Part shown: positions 5,338-39,433 of the stretch, piece after piece
How the letters are laid out: each line of letters starts with the position of its first letter
Numbering within the stretch: the first letter of the stretch is position 1
Source: Bacteroidota bacterium
GTDB taxonomy: Bacteria; Bacteroidota; Bacteroidia; AKYH767-A; 2013-40CM-41-45
Direction: 5' to 3'
Assembly (NCBI GenBank): GCA_026391975.1
Contig: JAPLDB010000071.1
Span: 1 to 39,846, forward strand
DNA length: 39,846 nucleotides
Position numbers and translations under genes: made by a program
Notes under the pieces: generated by a model
What the model was told of the DNA's origin: nothing
Database searches by the model: none
The model's input: the letters and a program-made list of their open reading frames with translations, nothing else

Positions 5338-6744
5338 ATGAAATCAAAATTAATCACCTTTCTCCTTTTTATTTTCATGTCCAGCGTGGGCTTACACTCC
5401 GCCAACGCTTGCCGTCAGGGCGGGTTTGACATCAGTTACATCCATCTGAATGGACCCAATTACAGGGTACATTGTAATTTTTACAGAGACTGTTCGGGTA
5501 TCATGCTGAACACCTTGACATTGACTGTAACTTCTGTAAACTGTGGCTACACCAATACTTATACGATGGTCCCTGTTACGCATACCGGTCTTCAATTAAC
5601 CCATGCCTGTTATGGTCATGATATAAATTGCAACGGCGGAAGCGAATTAGGTATGGAGCTTTGGGAGTATGAAGTTGATGTCGTATTAGGCCAATGCCCG
5701 GATTGGAGTCTGAGTGTTTATGATTGTTGCAGGAACTCTGCCATCACTACCCTGCAGAGCCCGGCAACAGGTTTGGTTGTAGAGGCCAGATTGGATAATT
5801 CAATAGACGACAATTCTTCTCCTCAGTTTCAAAATAATCCTTTCTTTATTGGATATCCCAACCAGGATTTTCATTTTAACAATGGCGCTGTTGATCCCGA
5901 TGGAGATTCGCTGGTCTATTTGCTCGTCGCCCCCAGAATGGGTCTGAATACACTGATTAATTATTTTCCCCCTTTATCATCACAGCAACCGTTTGAATCA
6001 CTTCATCCCATCACGCTGGATTCTTCCACTGGTGATTTTTTCATGCATCCTACCATCGCACAGGTCGGCGTTATTGTGTATGAAATACTTGAATACAGAA
6101 ACGGTCAGCTAATCGGCAGTGTTACCAGGGACATTATTCTCTTCATTCTTCCTTATCCAAATAATAGTCCCGGCCTGTCAGGAATTAACGGTGGAATAAT
6201 GCATACAGTGAATGCATTCCCTGGCTATGAACTTTGTTTTGATATTCTTTCCAACGACCTTGATGCAGGTGATTCACTTTTTATCACCTGGAACCAGGGA
6301 ATCCCGCTGGGTTCGTTTACGTCATCCAATTCTTTGCATCCTGCCGGAACATTCTGCTGGACTCCGCAATGGAATGATGCGCGACCACAACCATATATCT
6401 TCACCGCTTCTGTTACTGACAATGGGTGTCCGATCAGCTCAACCGCCATATTTTCATATGCCGTGTATGTGACAACCGATTCAACACTGATCAATTCAAC
6501 AATCAGCCCTTCGGGCGAAGCAAATATGCTGACGATTTCTCCGAACCCATCAAATGGAGTTTTTACAATTTTGAATTCTGAAAAATTTTCGAATGTTAGA
6601 GTTTATAACCCGCTTGGGGTGAGGTTTTCCGAAAAGGTTGTTCACGGCACCATAAACCTGAGCAATCAACCTGCAGGAATTTATTTCGTGGAGGCCGTGA
6701 TGCATGACGGGAAAGCGACGTGGCTGAAAGTGATAAAAGAGTAG
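5338..6744 (+). CDS. Secreted T9SS type A sorting-domain protein
   Basis: A 468-residue exported protein. Residues 1-24 are a clear signal peptide (LITFLLFIFMSSVG, cut near SANA). The N-terminal part of the mature protein is cysteine-rich (CNFYRDCSG, CYGHDINCNGG, VYDCCRN), so it is probably disulfide-bonded. The middle has a cadherin/Ig-like look with NNGAVDPDGDSLVY and NDLDAGDSLFITW, which resemble calcium-binding beta-sandwich loops. The last 75 or so residues are a T9SS type A signal: ISPNPSNGVFTI, then NVRVYNPLG, LSNQPAGIYFVE and a basic end WLKVIKE. It would cross the outer membrane through the T9SS and be attached to or released from the surface. No enzymatic motif is seen. Adhesin or structural surface roles are guesses. 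Confidence 0.85.
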   Translation: MKSKLITFLLFIFMSSVGLHSANACRQGGFDISYIHLNGPNYRVHCNFYRDCSGIMLNTLTLTVTSVNCGYTNTYTMVPVTHTGLQLTHACYGHDINCNGGSELGMELWEYEVDVVLGQCPDWSLSVYDCCRNSAITTLQSPATGLVVEARLDNSIDDNSSPQFQNNPFFIGYPNQDFHFNNGAVDPDGDSLVYLLVAPRMGLNTLINYFPPLSSQQPFESLHPITLDSSTGDFFMHPTIAQVGVIVYEILEYRNGQLIGSVTRDIILFILPYPNNSPGLSGINGGIMHTVNAFPGYELCFDILSNDLDAGDSLFITWNQGIPLGSFTSSNSLHPAGTFCWTPQWNDARPQPYIFTASVTDNGCPISSTAIFSYAVYVTTDSTLINSTISPSGEANMLTISPNPSNGVFTILNSEKFSNVRVYNPLGVRFSEKVVHGTINLSNQPAGIYFVEAVMHDGKATWLKVIKE

Positions 6745-26165: not shown

Positions 26166-29100
26166 TTGAAACTACCTTTTAATATATATTCTGTCTTTTT
26201 CACTGCATTTATGCTGTGTGCCGCTACTGGTATGGCTCAGCAGGTTAATTACAAAGACAAACCGATTACTTTTATTAAGCAACGTGCAACCCATTTCGAT
26301 GAAAAAACATTGCGGGAAAACATGACTGCTGATGGTTTACCGCAACCAGTTGTGAATAAGCTGGTTGAACAACACAGGCAGATGTGGGACAAAGGAATGC
26401 ATGTGGAATGGAGCCGCGCTCAGACCGCAAGAAATGGTCCGGGAAACCCAAGCACCTGTGCTGTTTGCGATGCCATGAGTGCAGAAAACGGCTGGGGCGC
26501 ATGGCAGGGCGCTATAGGCGGGAATTCAAGTATGAACCCTCCCGTTTGGGGTCCTTTGGGGTCACCAGCAGCACCCAACTTCAACCTCAATTCAGGCGGC
26601 GGAAATGATTTGTGTACTCCCGGATTTAATTTCGGCGATCCTCCGCTTCAGTTGGTTGCTCCGGGATTTGGAAATACTTCAATAGAGCTTGGCGAACCAC
26701 AAACTGCCGGTTCCGTTGCCGAGCAACTGGTGTATCCGCTTACTGTTGCTGTTACGGACACCAATTTTATTTATGCCTATGCACTCGTGCTTGAAGATGC
26801 CGGACACCCTGACGGAGAGCGTCCTTATGCAGAATTTGTTATGTTGAATCCTGCCGGCGATACGATTCCTTGCGCCTTCTTTCATTACGAAGCCAGTGAA
26901 CCGAATGGCCAGTCGCTTCCGGGTTTTTACCAGGGTGTATGCGGAGCAAAGTATAAACCATGGACAACTGTTGGCGTCAACCTCTCATCTTATGTAGGTC
27001 AAACGGTTACGCTTGTAATCACCAATGCCGACTGTATCTGGGGCGCCCACTTTGCACAATCGTACTGGGATTTTAATTGCGGAATCCTTCAGGGCAGTTC
27101 TTCAACTGATTGTTATGGCGTTGCTGATACACTGCGCGCACCTGATGATCCTTCCATCAACTATACTTATCACTGGTATCCCGGTGGTCAGACTACACAA
27201 AACATTGTCGTATACCCACAACCCGGAGATACATTTGTGGTCGCAGTACAACCGCCAACCGGATGTAACTTTTACGAGATATTCGTTCCGCAACCACAGG
27301 GAATCAATCCTGACTTTACCTATACCTCCCTTTGTGGCGCTGTTAATTTTCATGACATCAGCACCACTTCAAGCGGGGCGCCTATAATCGCATGGCACTG
27401 GAGTTTTCCCGGTGGAAACCCTTCTTCTTCAACATTGCAAAATCCAACTGTCGAATACGTCGGTGGTAGTTTTACTGCCACGCTCATCGTAACGGCAGCT
27501 TCGGGATGTATTGACACTGTTACCTATTCAGGAATTCCAACGAGTGCTTCGCCAACTGCCGCATTTACAGCAGCCGGGGTCTGCCTGGGTAATGCCATTT
27601 CATTTACAGATCACTCTTCTCCCGTTGGCAATGATCCCATTGTTTCATGGCAATGGAGTTTTGGTGACGGCCAGCAATCTTCATTGCAGGATCCAACCCA
27701 TCTTTATTCCTCGTCAAATGCATTCATTGTTTCCCTAACCGTGACGTCGCAGGGAGGATGCTCCTCCACTATTACAGATACCGTGCAGGTTCATCCGCTT
27801 CCTGTTGCTGCATTTAGCGCTGCCAATGTTTGTGAAAACATTCCTGTTCTTTTCAATGACCTTTCTTCCGGCCCGCCTGCAAACTGGTATTGGGATTTTG
27901 GAGATGGAAACCAATCATTATTACAGAGTCCTACTCATTCATATTTAAGCAGTGGTTCATATACTGCAACCCTCGTGGTAGTCAGCATATTCAATTGCAG
28001 AGATACTGTAACACATGACCTGGTTGTTTATCCCCAGCCTCTCGCGCAATTCAGCGCAGTGAAGGTTTGCGTCGGAGATACAACATGCTTCACTGACTTA
28101 TCTACAGTTTCCTCAGGTAACAATACTTCATGGTCGTGGAATTTTGGTGACACACTTTCGGGAGCAGAAAACTCTTCAACACTACAATATCCTTGTCATG
28201 TTTTTACACCCGGTGAAATATTCAGCCCGGTTATTTTACAGGTTACTTCCGATTTCGGATGTTCAAATGTGATTGCCCACGCCATTGATTTTTATACCCT
28301 TCCTATTGCAGAATTCAGTGCCAATAAAGTTTGTGTGGGAGACGCAACCTGTTTCAACGATCTCTCAACTGTTACATCAGGCCAGGTGGTTTCATGGAAT
28401 TGGGAATTTGGTGATGCCGCCTCAGGCATCGACAACTATTCTGATTTTGAAGACCCTTGCCACACTTTTTCTCCCGGCGGTGTATTTCTACCTGTTCATT
28501 TAATTGTAACTACTGATAACGGATGTAGGGACAGCATTGACCGACAGGTGAATTTCTGGCAACTGCCTCAGGCAGCATTTACGAGTACTGTGGGATGTCT
28601 AAATACCATCACCCATTTCACAGACCTAAGCAATCCCGCTGAAGCAGCTGATCCGCTTCATGCATGGAACTGGAACTTTGGTGACAGCACAAATCATTCA
28701 TGGCAACAAAACCCTGATCACCATTATTCGAGCTACGGTTATTTTGATGTTCAGCTGGTGATTTCAACTACACACAATTGCAAGGATACCATCACGATCC
28801 CTGCGCGTGTTTACAGTCTTCCAGTTCCTGAGTTTTCTGATTCAGCAGAAGGATGCACGCCTTTCTGCGCTTCATTCAGTGATCTGTCGTCTACCTTTGA
28901 TGGAAATATCTCAGAATGGGACTGGACTTTTGCAGGAGGTAATCCACCTGTTTCATCTTCAACAAATCCGGGGGTGTGCTATTCAATTCCGGGGACATAC
29001 AATGTAACCCTTATTTCCACCACCAGCTTTGGATGCAAAGACACAATAATGAAACCGCAGTATGTAAACGTTTATGAATTGCCGGGAGCCGATTTCAGCA

Positions 29101-29687
29101 TCGTTCCTGATACTTCAACAAGTTTGCTTACGCCGGCTTTTGATTTCCGCGATCTCTGGACAGGCAATGTAACTGAATGGCAATGGGACTTTGGTGATGG
29201 GTCACCGTTAGAAAGCAACGTGAGTAATCCAAGACATTCATACGGATCCGCCATCGACAACAATACTTATTATTCTTATTTGGTAACTGTGTATGTACAA
29301 ACAGAACATGGTTGCCGCGATTCAATTTCCAGAAAGGTTGAAGTAACTCCCGATTTTTCATTTTTCATTCCCAATTCTTTTACGCCCAATGGAGATCATA
29401 TCAATGACCTGTTTTATGGAAAAGGAAGAGGTATTCAGGAATATACAATTTCGATCTATGACCGCTGGGGTGTTTTACTCTGGACCTGTCATGAAGAAGG
29501 ATTGAATACTGGCTGGGACCGCTATCAGCAGGATGGAATGCCAAGCGCCTGTCAATGGGATGGGATATTAGATGCCAACCTGACTGACAAAAAATTACAA
29601 AATGATGTTTACGTGTGGAGGGTGCGTCTCACCACTATTTTTGGTGAGAAGAAAACGTACATCGGTCACGTAAGCGCGGTTAAGTGA
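26166..29687 (+). CDS. PKD-repeat protein with T9SS type B (gliding-motility-type) C-terminal domain
   Basis: A 1173-residue secreted protein. The start is TTG at 26166: a TAA immediately precedes it in frame, and only this start gives the full signal peptide MKLPFNIYSVFFTAFMLCAATGMA. The next ATG, at 26211, would cut the signal in half. After an N-terminal beta domain of about 340 residues come eight PKD-like domains, most opening with the pattern F-x-A-x-x-V-C and closing with WxFGDG. Repeats four and five are very alike. The last 85 or so residues are the CHU_C/type B signal: FIPNSFTPNGDHINDLFY, ISIYDRWGVLLW, WDG, NDVYVWRV. It is probably a surface adhesin or a gliding-associated protein. 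Confidence 0.9.
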   Translation: MKLPFNIYSVFFTAFMLCAATGMAQQVNYKDKPITFIKQRATHFDEKTLRENMTADGLPQPVVNKLVEQHRQMWDKGMHVEWSRAQTARNGPGNPSTCAVCDAMSAENGWGAWQGAIGGNSSMNPPVWGPLGSPAAPNFNLNSGGGNDLCTPGFNFGDPPLQLVAPGFGNTSIELGEPQTAGSVAEQLVYPLTVAVTDTNFIYAYALVLEDAGHPDGERPYAEFVMLNPAGDTIPCAFFHYEASEPNGQSLPGFYQGVCGAKYKPWTTVGVNLSSYVGQTVTLVITNADCIWGAHFAQSYWDFNCGILQGSSSTDCYGVADTLRAPDDPSINYTYHWYPGGQTTQNIVVYPQPGDTFVVAVQPPTGCNFYEIFVPQPQGINPDFTYTSLCGAVNFHDISTTSSGAPIIAWHWSFPGGNPSSSTLQNPTVEYVGGSFTATLIVTAASGCIDTVTYSGIPTSASPTAAFTAAGVCLGNAISFTDHSSPVGNDPIVSWQWSFGDGQQSSLQDPTHLYSSSNAFIVSLTVTSQGGCSSTITDTVQVHPLPVAAFSAANVCENIPVLFNDLSSGPPANWYWDFGDGNQSLLQSPTHSYLSSGSYTATLVVVSIFNCRDTVTHDLVVYPQPLAQFSAVKVCVGDTTCFTDLSTVSSGNNTSWSWNFGDTLSGAENSSTLQYPCHVFTPGEIFSPVILQVTSDFGCSNVIAHAIDFYTLPIAEFSANKVCVGDATCFNDLSTVTSGQVVSWNWEFGDAASGIDNYSDFEDPCHTFSPGGVFLPVHLIVTTDNGCRDSIDRQVNFWQLPQAAFTSTVGCLNTITHFTDLSNPAEAADPLHAWNWNFGDSTNHSWQQNPDHHYSSYGYFDVQLVISTTHNCKDTITIPARVYSLPVPEFSDSAEGCTPFCASFSDLSSTFDGNISEWDWTFAGGNPPVSSSTNPGVCYSIPGTYNVTLISTTSFGCKDTIMKPQYVNVYELPGADFSIVPDTSTSLLTPAFDFRDLWTGNVTEWQWDFGDGSPLESNVSNPRHSYGSAIDNNTYYSYLVTVYVQTEHGCRDSISRKVEVTPDFSFFIPNSFTPNGDHINDLFYGKGRGIQEYTISIYDRWGVLLWTCHEEGLNTGWDRYQQDGMPSACQWDGILDANLTDKKLQNDVYVWRVRLTTIFGEKKTYIGHVSAVK

Positions 29688-34209: not shown

Positions 34210-37200
34210 TCATTCTACGATCAGATTGACCCTGGCGGTGGAATTGTCGCTGCTCTTCACGACGACAAGGTAAATTCCCGGCGTCAGATTTGAAAGATTC
34301 AGCTCTACCCCATTCTTTCCTTCAACCATGTGAAAAGAACCGTATTGCGCTTCTCTTCCGGCAATATCAAACAGGGCTAGCGTCGCATCGGCGTCCTTGT
34401 CTGAATTAAACTGCAAGGTAGCACTTGAACGTGCCGGGTTCGGGTAAATAATTACATCATGAAGCAGTCCGGCCGGATTTTCTGAAGCGATACGTGCTGC
34501 AAGCGTTGTAAAAATCACTGGTGAAGAATAACTGCTTGACGATCCCATGCTGGTACATACACTCCGTGCCTGCCACTGATAAACGGTAGAGGCCGCCAGC
34601 CCCGTAAGTGCTGCATTGGTCGTACCGCCGGATCCGCTTACGTCTTTCCATAAATAATTTGTGGTGCCGTTTACTGAATATCGAACACGGAATGTGTCAG
34701 CAACAACGAGATTTGTCCAGTTCACTACAGCCGAAGCATTGGTAATGTTCGTTGTTGAAAGAACATAGGGCACAATACAAGCAGCTGTGGTATTTAATGT
34801 GGAGAATACAAAAGAGGGACTATAAGCACTGCTGACACCAGCACATTTTGAACTCACCTGAAACTGGTACGTTGTTGCCGGTGTCAGTCCTGATAAAGTA
34901 GTGCTGTTACCACCAGCACCATTCACATCTTTCCAGATGAAATTCGTGGTGCCATTTATTGAATAGCGGACACGGAAAGTGTCAGCAGATACCATGTTTG
35001 TCCAGCTCACCAAAGCAGACGTATTCGTAATCGAAGTTGCATTCAGGTTGTATGGTGTGATGCATTGTGCTACCGTATTCAATGTGGTAAATGTTGAAGG
35101 CACTGCCTGGTAATTTGATGATGCAATACTCACACACAGGCTTCTCACCCACCAGTCATATTGTGTTCCGGGAGTTAACCCGGTGAGCGCTGTTGAAACA
35201 ACATTGGGCTGACCGTTGATTTTTTTCCAGCTGAAATTGGTTGTATTGTGTACGGCATAACGAACCAGGAAACTATCAGCCGAAGCTCCTGCCCAGTTTA
35301 CCTGCACTGAAGTATTCTGGATGTTTGATGCTGAGAGGTTATTCGGGATAAGGCAATTTACTGTTGGTGTCGTAACGCTTACTTGTTGTGTTTGTGTTCC
35401 TGTGCATCCCTGAGCATTTGTATATGAATATACAATGCTGTACGGACCTCCCACTCCTGCAGTGGCAGGATTGAACTGATTGCTATTCATGCCGGGGCCT
35501 GAAAACGTTCCTCCTGCAGGACTGCCTGTTAATGTTACAGCAGAAGAATTTGATGGGTAAGAAGAATTTAATCCGGTGAATGAAACTGAAGGAACCGGGT
35601 TGATCGTTGCAACAACAGGAATGCGCCCACTCTTTGCAACAAGATCAGGTGATTTTACAACCATGTCGTAAAAGAAAGTGTAATTCGTATGTCCTGAATA
35701 AGAACCAAAGATGTTACAAATGCCCGGAGCAGAATATGGATAAGAAACGCCTGATGTATTGTAATACAGATTCGGCGTTCCGCTCACCATGAGCTTATAT
35801 CCCGGACCGGCAGGAACAAACCAGTTCAGTGTAATTACATTGGCTCCTGTAGAAGGCACGTTGATCGTTTGTGATTTCAATTGCGTTGATGCACGGTCCT
35901 GTAAAATAAAAGTTCTGTTCCCTGCCACTGATGCAAAAACTTTTACTGAAACAAGTGTGAGATCACTTACTGCATCAAACTGGGAATACCAAGTTGTTGA
36001 AGGAGTAGTAGTCTGGTAAGCGCCACTTCCGATTGTATTGTCAACCGGACCAACATGTGTTGTAGCACCGGTTGTTGTTACTTCATTTTCTACATAATAG
36101 GTAGTTGTTGTTGAGATTGACGACGTAGTATATGATGTGCCCGTAGTCAGCGGGATTGTTGCAACCGCTGAGCTATACCATTTCATTGTTCCTGTTCCTC
36201 CGTTGCTTGCTGTGAGATTCACAGTTCCGGTTCCACATCTTGCAGCTCCTGTTGTGGACGGTGCATTTGCCGCAGGTAAAACAGTAACTACAAATGGTGC
36301 TGAGGTTGCTGTTCCGCAATAGTTTGTAACCGCACAGGTATATGATCCTGCCGCACTCACAGTAATACTTTGTGTTGTTGCACCGCCGGGGGCCCAGAGA
36401 TAAGATGAACCTGCAGTAGCAGTAAGAGTGATATTGTCTCCTGTCAAAATAGTTCCCGGTTTGTTCGCAGAAATTTTAGTGACAGGTGAACCCGCTGCTG
36501 ACTGATTGGAAATTGTGATCGGCACTGCGACAACATTGTTGTTCTCATTCAGCTCTGTCATGTTTTGATTCGGATCCAGCTGAACAACGATGTAATATGT
36601 TCCATTGCATGTTCCAGGCGGAACATCAATCCACATGCCATCAAGTCCTGAGCTGTAACTGTCGTACCAGCCGTTGGAAATTCCCTGCAGCGTAGAAGAA
36701 CAACCGTATCCTCCTGCACCGATTGTATAATTGGGAATCTGGTTAGAAAGTTTCGGGACATTGTTATCGTCTCTGCAATAAATTCCGCTGCCATTGTCAC
36801 ACGATCCGATATCAAGCAAACAAAATGCAAGTTTGGTTCCGGTTCCCACAATGCTCCAGTGTGTAGGGTCCGGATCATTCGGATTCAGTAATCGAAGTGT
36901 ATAAATTCCCCAGTTGTCAACGTGCATGTGTCCGTGTGACGGGTGATATGTCATTGTACCGCAAGGCACATCGGTGTATGACATTGCATTTCCATTCTTG
37001 TGGTAGATCCGCTGAACAACAAATCGTTTCGGAACTCTTCCGTCGGGACAGAGGGTGCCTGGATCAGAAAATAATGTATCAGTTCCGCAAAGCCATTTGT
37101 TTATAGACCGTGTTTCAAGCGGACCATAGCCGATGTTTGGTGTAGTTCCAGTTAAACGCAGCCGACCGTCATTGCTTCCCTGTGATCCGCTTGCTGCATT

Positions 37201-37392
37201 ACCGGATTGGGTATATACAGTATAGCCGCTTTGTAGCGCATCAACAGATACCTTCACATCTGGAAGCAGGTCGCAGTTCGTTCCTCCACCGGGAGGACAA
37301 ACGCAGGATGTTGCATTTGTTGTTGTGCATTGAGAAAATGAATTGCCTGAAATGAATGCTGCGAACAGCAGTGTAAGTAATGAACGTTTCAT
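34210..37392 (-). CDS. Lysyl-oxidase-like domain protein with FN3 repeats, T9SS cargo
   Basis: A 1060-residue secreted protein. Signal peptide 1-20 (MKRSLLTLLFAAFISGNSFS). Residues about 41-290 resemble the lysyl oxidase catalytic domain. The copper-site pattern is YHPSHGHMHVDNW (H150, H153, H155, H157). GTKLAFCLLD places K187 where lysyl oxidase has its LTQ lysine (GHKASFCLED). WYDSYSSGLDGMWIDVPPG places Y246 at the LTQ tyrosine, followed by YYIVVQLDPNQNMTELNENNN like the animal VNPxxxxxESxxxNN end. Then come two Ig-like domains, a beta-sandwich, a further PKD-like segment, three FN3 domains (about 690-960) and a type A T9SS signal (IIYPNPARSSATLQF to VNLIVE). It could oxidise peptidyl amines at the cell surface. 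Confidence 0.85.
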   Translation of the reverse strand: MKRSLLTLLFAAFISGNSFSQCTTTNATSCVCPPGGGTNCDLLPDVKVSVDALQSGYTVYTQSGNAASGSQGSNDGRLRLTGTTPNIGYGPLETRSINKWLCGTDTLFSDPGTLCPDGRVPKRFVVQRIYHKNGNAMSYTDVPCGTMTYHPSHGHMHVDNWGIYTLRLLNPNDPDPTHWSIVGTGTKLAFCLLDIGSCDNGSGIYCRDDNNVPKLSNQIPNYTIGAGGYGCSSTLQGISNGWYDSYSSGLDGMWIDVPPGTCNGTYYIVVQLDPNQNMTELNENNNVVAVPITISNQSAAGSPVTKISANKPGTILTGDNITLTATAGSSYLWAPGGATTQSITVSAAGSYTCAVTNYCGTATSAPFVVTVLPAANAPSTTGAARCGTGTVNLTASNGGTGTMKWYSSAVATIPLTTGTSYTTSSISTTTTYYVENEVTTTGATTHVGPVDNTIGSGAYQTTTPSTTWYSQFDAVSDLTLVSVKVFASVAGNRTFILQDRASTQLKSQTINVPSTGANVITLNWFVPAGPGYKLMVSGTPNLYYNTSGVSYPYSAPGICNIFGSYSGHTNYTFFYDMVVKSPDLVAKSGRIPVVATINPVPSVSFTGLNSSYPSNSSAVTLTGSPAGGTFSGPGMNSNQFNPATAGVGGPYSIVYSYTNAQGCTGTQTQQVSVTTPTVNCLIPNNLSASNIQNTSVQVNWAGASADSFLVRYAVHNTTNFSWKKINGQPNVVSTALTGLTPGTQYDWWVRSLCVSIASSNYQAVPSTFTTLNTVAQCITPYNLNATSITNTSALVSWTNMVSADTFRVRYSINGTTNFIWKDVNGAGGNSTTLSGLTPATTYQFQVSSKCAGVSSAYSPSFVFSTLNTTAACIVPYVLSTTNITNASAVVNWTNLVVADTFRVRYSVNGTTNYLWKDVSGSGGTTNAALTGLAASTVYQWQARSVCTSMGSSSSYSSPVIFTTLAARIASENPAGLLHDVIIYPNPARSSATLQFNSDKDADATLALFDIAGREAQYGSFHMVEGKNGVELNLSNLTPGIYLVVVKSSDNSTARVNLIVE

Positions 37393-37487: not shown

Positions 37488-38678
37488 TTATTCCGCCAAA
37501 AGTTTATCAATCAATCCTGTAAAATGGTTTTTCCATTGCTCGAAATATATTCCTGTAGCCGGACCGGAAAAACCGGTGTGGATGTTTCTCACATGACCTT
37601 TTTTGTCAATTATAATAGTTGTAGGAAAGCTTAGAATAGCGCTGAGCATGGGCAATGTTTTTTCCCGCTTTTCTTTATCCGTTGATCCGGCAAATAAAAG
37701 CATGTATTCTATGCCATACCTTTCACGCAGGCGTTTTAGATTTTTCTTTGCCGTCTGAAGTGTTGGAATGCGTTCATAGTCGAGACCGATAATTTCAAGG
37801 CCCTTCGCGCTATTCTTTTTATAGAACGGTGCGAGGAATTCTGTTTCGTCCATGCAATTCGGGCACCAGGTACCCATCACCTGGATAACGACAACTTTTC
37901 CTTCAAACTTTTTATCGGTCAGTGAAACCATGTTGCTGTCAGCATCAGGAAAAGCAAAAGCGATTTTGTCAAAACCTTTTTTCAGAAAAGTGAGGGAATC
38001 CGGATCAGGCAATGATGCATTTTCATTCCGGATCGCCTTCCATGTGTCGTGCCAGTGTTTGCCGCTGTAAAAATGACCATCAAGCACATCGTCAGGATTG
38101 ATGTCTGCAGAAAAATAAAACAAGTGACTTCCATCAAAACAAGACAAATACATTTTATTACCGTCAGCAAATCCATCCAGGTATCGGTAGTCTCCTGTCG
38201 GAGTAAGAAATGTTCCCGTGATGTGATTGCCTTGCTGACTGAATTCACCCACCGCTTTATTCATCGGAGGTTCGTCTCCCGCAAAGGTTACTTCCCATCG
38301 TCCCTCGAAATTTTTCAGTTCGAAAGAATTGACGAGCGGATTCAATTTTCCGGCAAAGGCCTGAAAAGGGATTATATTGTCGCTGGTGCGGGCATGATTC
38401 AAAAATTTGCCTGTCATTGTATCGCCCTTCAATTGACATCTGATCTCTGAGTCGAAGACAGGCATCTTTATAAAAACCGAGTCTCCCGATGCTGTTATTT
38501 CTGTAACTTTAATCCTTTCCTGCGCATTGATGAATTCGATTGTATTGCCCGCGGATTCAAACTGAAATGGAAGCGCTACAGTATCGTTCAGTTGAAATTC
38601 GCCATGCCAGATGCCAGGTTTCACCTGACAAAAGGAAAACAAAGGAAGAAATACCAGCAGAATGATGAGTTTGTTCAT
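37488..38678 (-). CDS. TlpA-like thioredoxin-fold protein
   Basis: A 396-residue exported protein. The ORF opens at 38726, but the ATG at 38678 starts a clean signal peptide (MNKLIILLVFLPLFSFC), so I place the start there. The first 235 residues are beta-rich repeats of a DUF4369-like kind. A TlpA/AhpC-TSA domain follows, with VVIQVMGTWCPNCMDETEFLAPF (active site W271-CPNC-275), GLDYERIPT, and a cis-proline region SFPTTIIIDKKGHV. The redox pair suggests a periplasmic disulfide reductase. A Cys at the end of the signal peptide could be a lipobox (FSFCQ), so it may be a lipoprotein. It is divergent from rsmI. Confidence 0.87.
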   Translation of the reverse strand: MNKLIILLVFLPLFSFCQVKPGIWHGEFQLNDTVALPFQFESAGNTIEFINAQERIKVTEITASGDSVFIKMPVFDSEIRCQLKGDTMTGKFLNHARTSDNIIPFQAFAGKLNPLVNSFELKNFEGRWEVTFAGDEPPMNKAVGEFSQQGNHITGTFLTPTGDYRYLDGFADGNKMYLSCFDGSHLFYFSADINPDDVLDGHFYSGKHWHDTWKAIRNENASLPDPDSLTFLKKGFDKIAFAFPDADSNMVSLTDKKFEGKVVVIQVMGTWCPNCMDETEFLAPFYKKNSAKGLEIIGLDYERIPTLQTAKKNLKRLRERYGIEYMLLFAGSTDKEKREKTLPMLSAILSFPTTIIIDKKGHVRNIHTGFSGPATGIYFEQWKNHFTGLIDKLLAE

Positions 38679-38682
38679 GATG

Positions 38683-38706
38683 TAAAAGTATTTTAAAATA
38701 TCTTTC
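38683..38706. promoter_or_regulatory. Overlapping divergent -7 boxes
   Basis: TATCTTTC (38699-38706, for rsmI) and, on the minus strand, TACTTTTA (38683-38690, for the TlpA-like gene) each match the -7 consensus at seven of eight positions. Neither has a -33 at the right spacing. The intergenic gap is only 41 nt. Confidence 0.3.
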
Positions 38707-38719
38707 GACCTTCGACCCC

Positions 38720-39433
38720 ATGGCAAAGCTATACCTTATACCTACTCCCATCGGAAATCTCGAAGATATTACACTTCGCGCCATCCGACTTTTGAAAGAG
38801 TGTGATTTTATTCTTGCCGAAGATACACGAACAAGCGGAGTGCTGCTGAAGCATTTTCAGATCCAGAAAAGGATGGTCAGCTACCATGCTCACAACGAAC
38901 ACAAGATGCTGGAAAGGATTGTGGAAGAAATTGAATCCTCCAATTCCGTTGCACTGATCACTGATGCCGGCACACCCGGTATTTCTGACCCCGGCTTTTT
39001 AATTGTGCGCGAATGCATCAAAAGAAATATTCCTGTTGAATGTCTGCCCGGCGCTACAGCCATCATCCCGGCCCTTGTTAATTCCGGCTTGCCAAACGAC
39101 CGGTTTTGCTTTGAGGGTTTTCTGCCGCAGAAAAAAGGCCGGCAGACAAAAATGCATTCCCTGAAAGATGAAGAACGTACGATGGTTTTTTATGAATCAC
39201 CCTACCGCCTTGTAAAAACGCTTGAACAGTTAGGTGAAGTCTTTGGAAAAGAAAGGCAGGCAAGTGTTTCCCGGGAACTCACGAAAATGTTTGAAGAAAA
39301 CAAACGGGGTACGCTGGAAGAACTTGCTGCTTATTTCAAAAGTAAGACGGTGAAGGGAGAGATTGTAATTGTTGTTGGTGGAAAAGAAAGCGGCAGCAAG
39401 GAACAGCAAGAGGAAGCAGAGGATCAAGAATAA
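38720..39433 (+). CDS. rsmI: 16S rRNA (cytidine-1402-2'-O)-methyltransferase
   Basis: RsmI methylates the 2'-O of C1402 in the decoding centre of 16S rRNA. The 237-residue tetrapyrrole-methylase-fold protein has PTPIGNLEDITLRA, LAEDTRTSGVLLKHF, LITDAGTPGISDPGF and PGATAIIPALVNSGLP with FEGFLPQKKG, all diagnostic. The C-terminus (GSKEQQEEAEDQE) is an unstructured acidic tail. Length is slightly shorter than the E. coli enzyme, which has a C-terminal extension. The divergent neighbour is the TlpA-like gene. Confidence 0.96.
   Translation: MAKLYLIPTPIGNLEDITLRAIRLLKECDFILAEDTRTSGVLLKHFQIQKRMVSYHAHNEHKMLERIVEEIESSNSVALITDAGTPGISDPGFLIVRECIKRNIPVECLPGATAIIPALVNSGLPNDRFCFEGFLPQKKGRQTKMHSLKDEERTMVFYESPYRLVKTLEQLGEVFGKERQASVSRELTKMFEENKRGTLEELAAYFKSKTVKGEIVIVVGGKESGSKEQQEEAEDQE

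Follow-up and report, generated by a model that had tools for sequence, protein, structure and literature searches.

The open reading frame described here lies at positions 34210..37392 on the minus strand of the window, a stretch of 39,846 nucleotides of DNA from a Bacteroidota bacterium. Its translation is a protein of 1060 amino acid residues with an ATG start. The chain consists, in order, of a signal peptide (residues 1-21), a lysyl oxidase (LOX)-like domain (residues 22-300), an unnamed stretch, an Ig_7 domain, a beta-sandwich, a second unnamed stretch, three fn3 stretches and a type A tail of the type IX secretion system (T9SS). The signal peptide (MKRSLLTLLFAAFISGNSFSQ; 37330..37392, minus strand) is probable and was recognized by inspection only. 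The predicted catalytic LOX-like domain (36493..37329, minus strand) was assigned from the Pfam profile PF01186, an AlphaFold2 model and a structural match to human LOXL2. The Ig_7 domain, an Ig-like domain associated with CHU_C (residues 377-441; 36070..36264, minus strand), and the best of the three fn3 stretches (residues 780-859; 34816..35055, minus strand) were both found by Pfam. The beta-sandwich (residues 440-611; 35560..36075, minus strand) has no Pfam name and was modelled by AlphaFold2 with a pLDDT of 84.4. It is common to most family members in which the LOX domain comes first (L005-L021), including those of the His-less clade described below. It was considered as a carbohydrate-binding module, and this was rejected: the model is confident, yet it gave no PDB match under E 0.001.

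The T9SS type A sorting domain at the C-terminus (residues 982-1055; 34228..34449, minus strand) was found above cut-off with both PF18962 and TIGR04183. The TIGR04183 score is 39.1 bits against a cut-off of 23, and in the profile search of the protein the Por_Secre_tail/TIGR04183 match spans residues 982-1059. SprA, the T9SS translocon, is encoded in the same genome (TIGR04189, 2580 bits). Export of the protein as T9SS cargo is thus a supported prediction from the sorting domain and SprA. Two more T9SS cargo proteins are found in the window, at 26166-29687 and 5338-6744. One of them contains seven PKD_4 stretches and ends in a CHU_C/type B tail; the other matches Big_9 weakly and ends in a type A tail. 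The gene directly upstream of the LOX gene, on the strand that the two share, encodes a TlpA/ResA-like thiol-disulfide oxidoreductase of 412 residues (37488..38726, minus strand).

Against the Lysyl_oxidase profile PF01186 (cut-off 20.4), the protein scores 38.6 bits over its whole chain and 43.2 bits when the domain is searched by itself. This match is limited to profile positions 129-198 of 204, the C-terminal third, so that the region of the His residues and the Lys residue is invisible to Pfam. The matched stretch also overlaps a CARDB-like beta-sandwich, and it is therefore weak evidence when taken alone. A profile of 74 relatives was aligned with one of 26 canonical Bacteroidota LOX domains at E 5e-16, and the HxHxH, G-x-K-x-x-FC, GI and DxY columns are in register in this alignment. 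In an alignment of the canonical LOX at C35 of the window's genome with human LOXL2 (E 4.6e-22), the H, K and Y residues are matched. LOXL2 was also the best match (E 9.5e-5) when the profile of the window protein's subfamily was compared with all PDB sequences. The AlphaFold2 model of the LOX domain, built from 19 sequences of this subfamily, has a pLDDT of 85.3 and a pTM of 0.82. LOXL2 is the one PDB entry that it matches under E 0.001 (5ze3_A, Foldseek E 7.2e-7), with a VIA Z of 14.8 and an rmsd of 3.5 over 175 residues; the next entry has a Z of 7.1. A search of the viral structure library for relatives of the LOX domain gave nothing under E 0.001.

As judged from the profiles and the predicted model, residues 22-300 are a divergent LOX domain. 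The first-pass annotation, made from the letters of the DNA alone, had proposed such a domain at residues 41-290 of a modular, T9SS-exported protein. The PF01186 match above cut-off and the LOX fold of the model, with LOXL2 as the top match, agree with that proposal, as do the Ig_7, fn3 and sorting domains and the SprA of the genome. The start at residue 41 does not hold. It is placed at about residue 22 instead, where inspection puts the cleavage region of the signal peptide, because the conserved Cys30, Cys32 and Cys40 belong to the domain.

The predicted copper site, H150-x2-H153-x-H155-x-H157 (36922..36945, minus strand), corresponds in the alignments to His623, His626, His628 and His630 of LOXL2. 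The predicted residues of lysine tyrosylquinone (LTQ) are Lys187 (36832..36834, minus strand), equivalent to LOXL2 Lys653, and Tyr246 (36655..36657, minus strand), equivalent to LOXL2 Tyr689. All six residues stand in the translation where the first-pass annotation had numbered them, the motifs GTKLAFCLLD and WYDSYSSG that it quoted occupy residues 185-194 and 242-249, and the Lys, Tyr and His correspondence that it had read by eye is upheld by the profile-profile alignment. Lys187 and Tyr246 are invariant in 74 of 74 distinct related domains. His153, His155 and His157 are invariant in all 67 domains outside one clade, and their LOXL2 equivalents are the copper ligands; the LOXL2 mutants H626Q, H628Q and H630Q form no LTQ (PMC9694262). 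At the position of His150, equivalent to His289 of LOX, His is the commonest residue (50/74) and Asp is found in 16/74. None of the 26 canonical Bacteroidota domains has His at this position, and Grau-Bove et al. (PMC4448552) reported it as missing from bacterial LOX. The LOXL2 mutant H623Q retains 21% of the wild-type kcat/Km, while H652Q retains 39% (PMC9694262). In the window protein, Thr186 stands in the place of LOXL2 His652, directly before the LTQ lysine.

It is useful to compare the window protein with the known lysyl oxidases. It shares with human LOXL2/LOX (PF01186; PDB 5ZE3) the fold, the HxHxH motif, the fourth His upstream of it, the LTQ Lys and Tyr and a W[IV][DN]I motif. However, the identity to LOXL2 in structural alignments is only about 17-23%, and the loop between Lys and Tyr is longer, with a spacing of 59 residues as compared with 36. 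In the precursor of LOXL2 the two residues are separated by 16.6 Å (PMC9694262), so their distance in a model is not decisive. The ten-cysteine pattern of animal-type LOX is absent from the window protein. By our reading of the alignments, three of the ten cysteines of the LOXL2 catalytic domain have equivalents, namely Cys191, Cys198 and Cys231 (LOXL2 Cys657, Cys663 and Cys673), while Trp242 and Gly252 are aligned with LOXL2 Cys685 and Cys695. Seven other conserved cysteines are located at new positions. In addition, the window protein has no SRCR domains and carries a T9SS tail, unlike LOXL2. With the canonical bacterial and archaeal LOX (the archaeal HTU-LOX and the C35 protein of the same genome) it has in common the copper His residues, the LTQ Lys and Tyr and secretion, but it belongs to a separate divergent subfamily and has His at the His289 position.

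Four members of this subfamily, the window protein among them, are encoded in the window's genome in addition to the canonical LOX. The C48 paralogue is 82% identical to the window protein and has 1627 residues, and those at C50 and C37 have 614 residues each. The latter represent the second of two main architectures. In the first, the LOX domain is followed by Ig_7 and a variable tail; in the second, a proprotein-convertase P-domain precedes the LOX domain and PKD and a T9SS tail follow it. The LOX domains of the second group belong to the same subfamily, with about 45% identity and the Lys and Tyr invariant. Approximately 18 such paralogues are found in a related genome, G006. It gave 19 matches, two of which are pieces on one contig, and the assembly is listed at 7% contamination. 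These genes (L046, L060-L075) are mostly of the size expected for the P-domain, LOX, PKD and T9SS architecture, and the first His is replaced by Asp or Asn in 17 of the 17 aligned domains. When the window's genome and 40 related ones were searched, 31 of the 41 matched the window domain at E up to 1e-3, and a profile search of the order matched 33 of 42; both counts include weak matches, several of those in the former being to canonical LOX. A wide sample of the phylum gave six matches in 247 genomes, three of them strong, which indicates that the subfamily is concentrated in the window's order and scattered elsewhere.

In our view, the window protein is likely to be a copper/LTQ amine oxidase of the LOX superfamily that is secreted to the cell surface, its enzyme domain standing at the N-terminus of a modular cargo of type IX secretion. 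Precedents for this reading are the activity of HTU-LOX (PMC6452851) and the loss of LTQ in the LOXL2 His mutants (PMC9694262). Points against it are the invariance of Lys187 and Tyr246 in the His-less clade, Thr186, the small number of cysteines shared with LOXL2 and the longer spacing between Lys and Tyr. The homology, fold, residue conservation and export signal were computed here, and the copper, LTQ, activity and cross-linking are carried over from the animal family. By analogy with LOXL2 and HTU-LOX, we infer copper binding, LTQ formation and extracellular oxidation of primary amines. The protein would enter the periplasm, its conserved cysteines would form disulfides, and Cu(II) would be bound by His153, His155 and His157. 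Copper-dependent oxidation of Tyr246 and subsequent attack by Lys187 would then yield LTQ. The protein would be exported by the T9SS after LTQ formation, and the exported enzyme would deaminate primary amines, probably protein lysines, to give aldehydes, ammonia and H2O2. By the same analogy, the aldehydes might form cross-links in polymers of the surface or matrix.

Besides cross-linking, such an activity could have other uses. An active amine oxidase might serve for nitrogen and carbon scavenging, for detoxification of amines or antibiotics or for H2O2 production, with the same enzyme mechanism as above, so that this reading competes with the cross-linking role only. It is a real possibility, though less probable than not. 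HTU-LOX, the homologue from archaea, shows amine oxidase activity sensitive to BAPN, and its relaxed specificity extends to small amines, aminoglycosides and polymyxin (PMC6452851). Moreover, the LOX domain occurs without any collagen match in seven genomes (G001, G002, G004, G005, G010, G018 and G020), and G014, with its 31 collagen matches, lacks a convincing member of the LOX subfamily. However, the T9SS tail and the adhesion modules suggest macromolecular substrates. LOX is known for its part in building animal connective tissue, where it cross-links collagen. Because the present subfamily occurs in multiple copies, is exported together with modules of the adhesion type and is found widely within one order, it lends itself to the question of whether bacterial surface proteins are cross-linked via oxidised lysines.

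The clade in which the ligands are not conserved consists of seven domains from six genomes (L038, L043, L082, L083, two genes of L084, and L085) and has a support of 99/91. His153 and His155 are lost in all seven domains and His157 in four of the seven. His residues are found instead at positions 186 and 275, in six of the seven domains each, as compared with about 1% of the other domains. These could represent a re-sited metal centre, or the clade could form a Lys-Tyr cross-link without the HxHxH copper. Of 42 columns that are near-invariant elsewhere, 35 are retained in all seven domains, and Lys187 and Tyr246 are among them. Since the two residues remain invariant in a clade without the copper His residues, their conservation alone does not prove an LTQ enzyme. 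From the alignments, Lys187 and Tyr246 may have a role independent of copper. The copper dependence of LTQ biogenesis can be probed in the His-less clade as a natural experiment.

This conservation is also what would be expected if the LOX fold had been turned to adhesion or binding without catalysis, with the protein as an adhesin or matrix component together with its Ig, fn3 and beta-sandwich domains. The Lys and Tyr would then be kept for structural reasons, for example as a buried ion pair or a cross-link other than LTQ. The architecture is adhesin-like, and the tails vary among PKD, fn3 and PKD_6. However, structure alone does not account for the fact that the window protein and the 67 of 67 domains outside the His-less clade keep the three ligand His residues, and we regard this reading as unlikely. 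With the His set of the window protein intact, the catalytic reading stays the best. A broader proposition, that Lys187 and Tyr246 of this divergent T9SS-exported LOX subfamily, expanded in one genome to about 18 copies, have a function that has outlived the copper site, seems to us quite doubtful. A CARDB or Ig-like beta-sandwich mistaken for LOX is most improbable and already disfavoured: CARDB does match in the C-terminal third to which the Pfam match is confined (in 12 of 19 members, with E values up to 0.01; the window protein scores 20 bits, under the cut-off of 22.7), and CARDB structures match the model at Z 6-7, but the Z of LOXL2 over its 175 residues is about twice that of any CARDB match, the HxHxH and Lys region aligns with canonical LOX outside the CARDB part, and LOX itself appears to include a CARDB-like beta-sandwich.

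As to the novelty of the amine oxidase proposed here, LOX in Bacteroidetes has been known since 2015 (Grau-Bove et al., PMC4448552), and the window protein therefore belongs to a divergent subfamily within a known kind of enzyme. Most prokaryotic LOX were reported to be single-domain proteins, whereas the window protein is modular. No relevant paper on T9SS lysyl oxidases was found among open-access texts. The new elements are the divergent, modular, multi-copy subfamily and its unexpected His-less branch, although the 2015 survey may already include members of the subfamily. The set of about 18 copies in one relative and the recurrence of a TlpA-like gene next to LOX in nine other genomes are likewise new points.

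A homologue of the TlpA/ResA-like gene is found directly upstream of the LOX gene in eight genomes (G001, G013, G022, G028, G030, G032, G033 and G035), and in a ninth, G036, it adjoins a fragment of LOX at the end of a contig. None of the other window neighbours tested is conserved beside LOX in those genomes. A part for this neighbour in disulfide or copper maturation is plausible, but no more than a lead. It was also considered as a LOX-specific partner, and this was ruled out: the gene is present in 38 of 41 genomes, some of them without subfamily LOX, and thus cannot be dedicated to LOX. The linkage may be partly ancestral.

Collagen-like proteins were considered as substrates. In G003, a protein of 1319 residues with ten collagen triple-helix repeat stretches is encoded just upstream of the LOX gene (L138:1911-5867), and the window's genome has one weak collagen match (E 2.4e-4). 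As a general rule, collagen substrates were rejected because the distributions of collagen repeats and LOX disagree across 21 genomes. A gene for a Reg_prop beta-propeller was not seen near the window LOX gene. Many relatives encode such a protein, ending in a T9SS tail, directly after the LOX gene or within a few kb of it (L006, L008-L016, L021, L125, L128-L130, L132-L134, L138 and L139).
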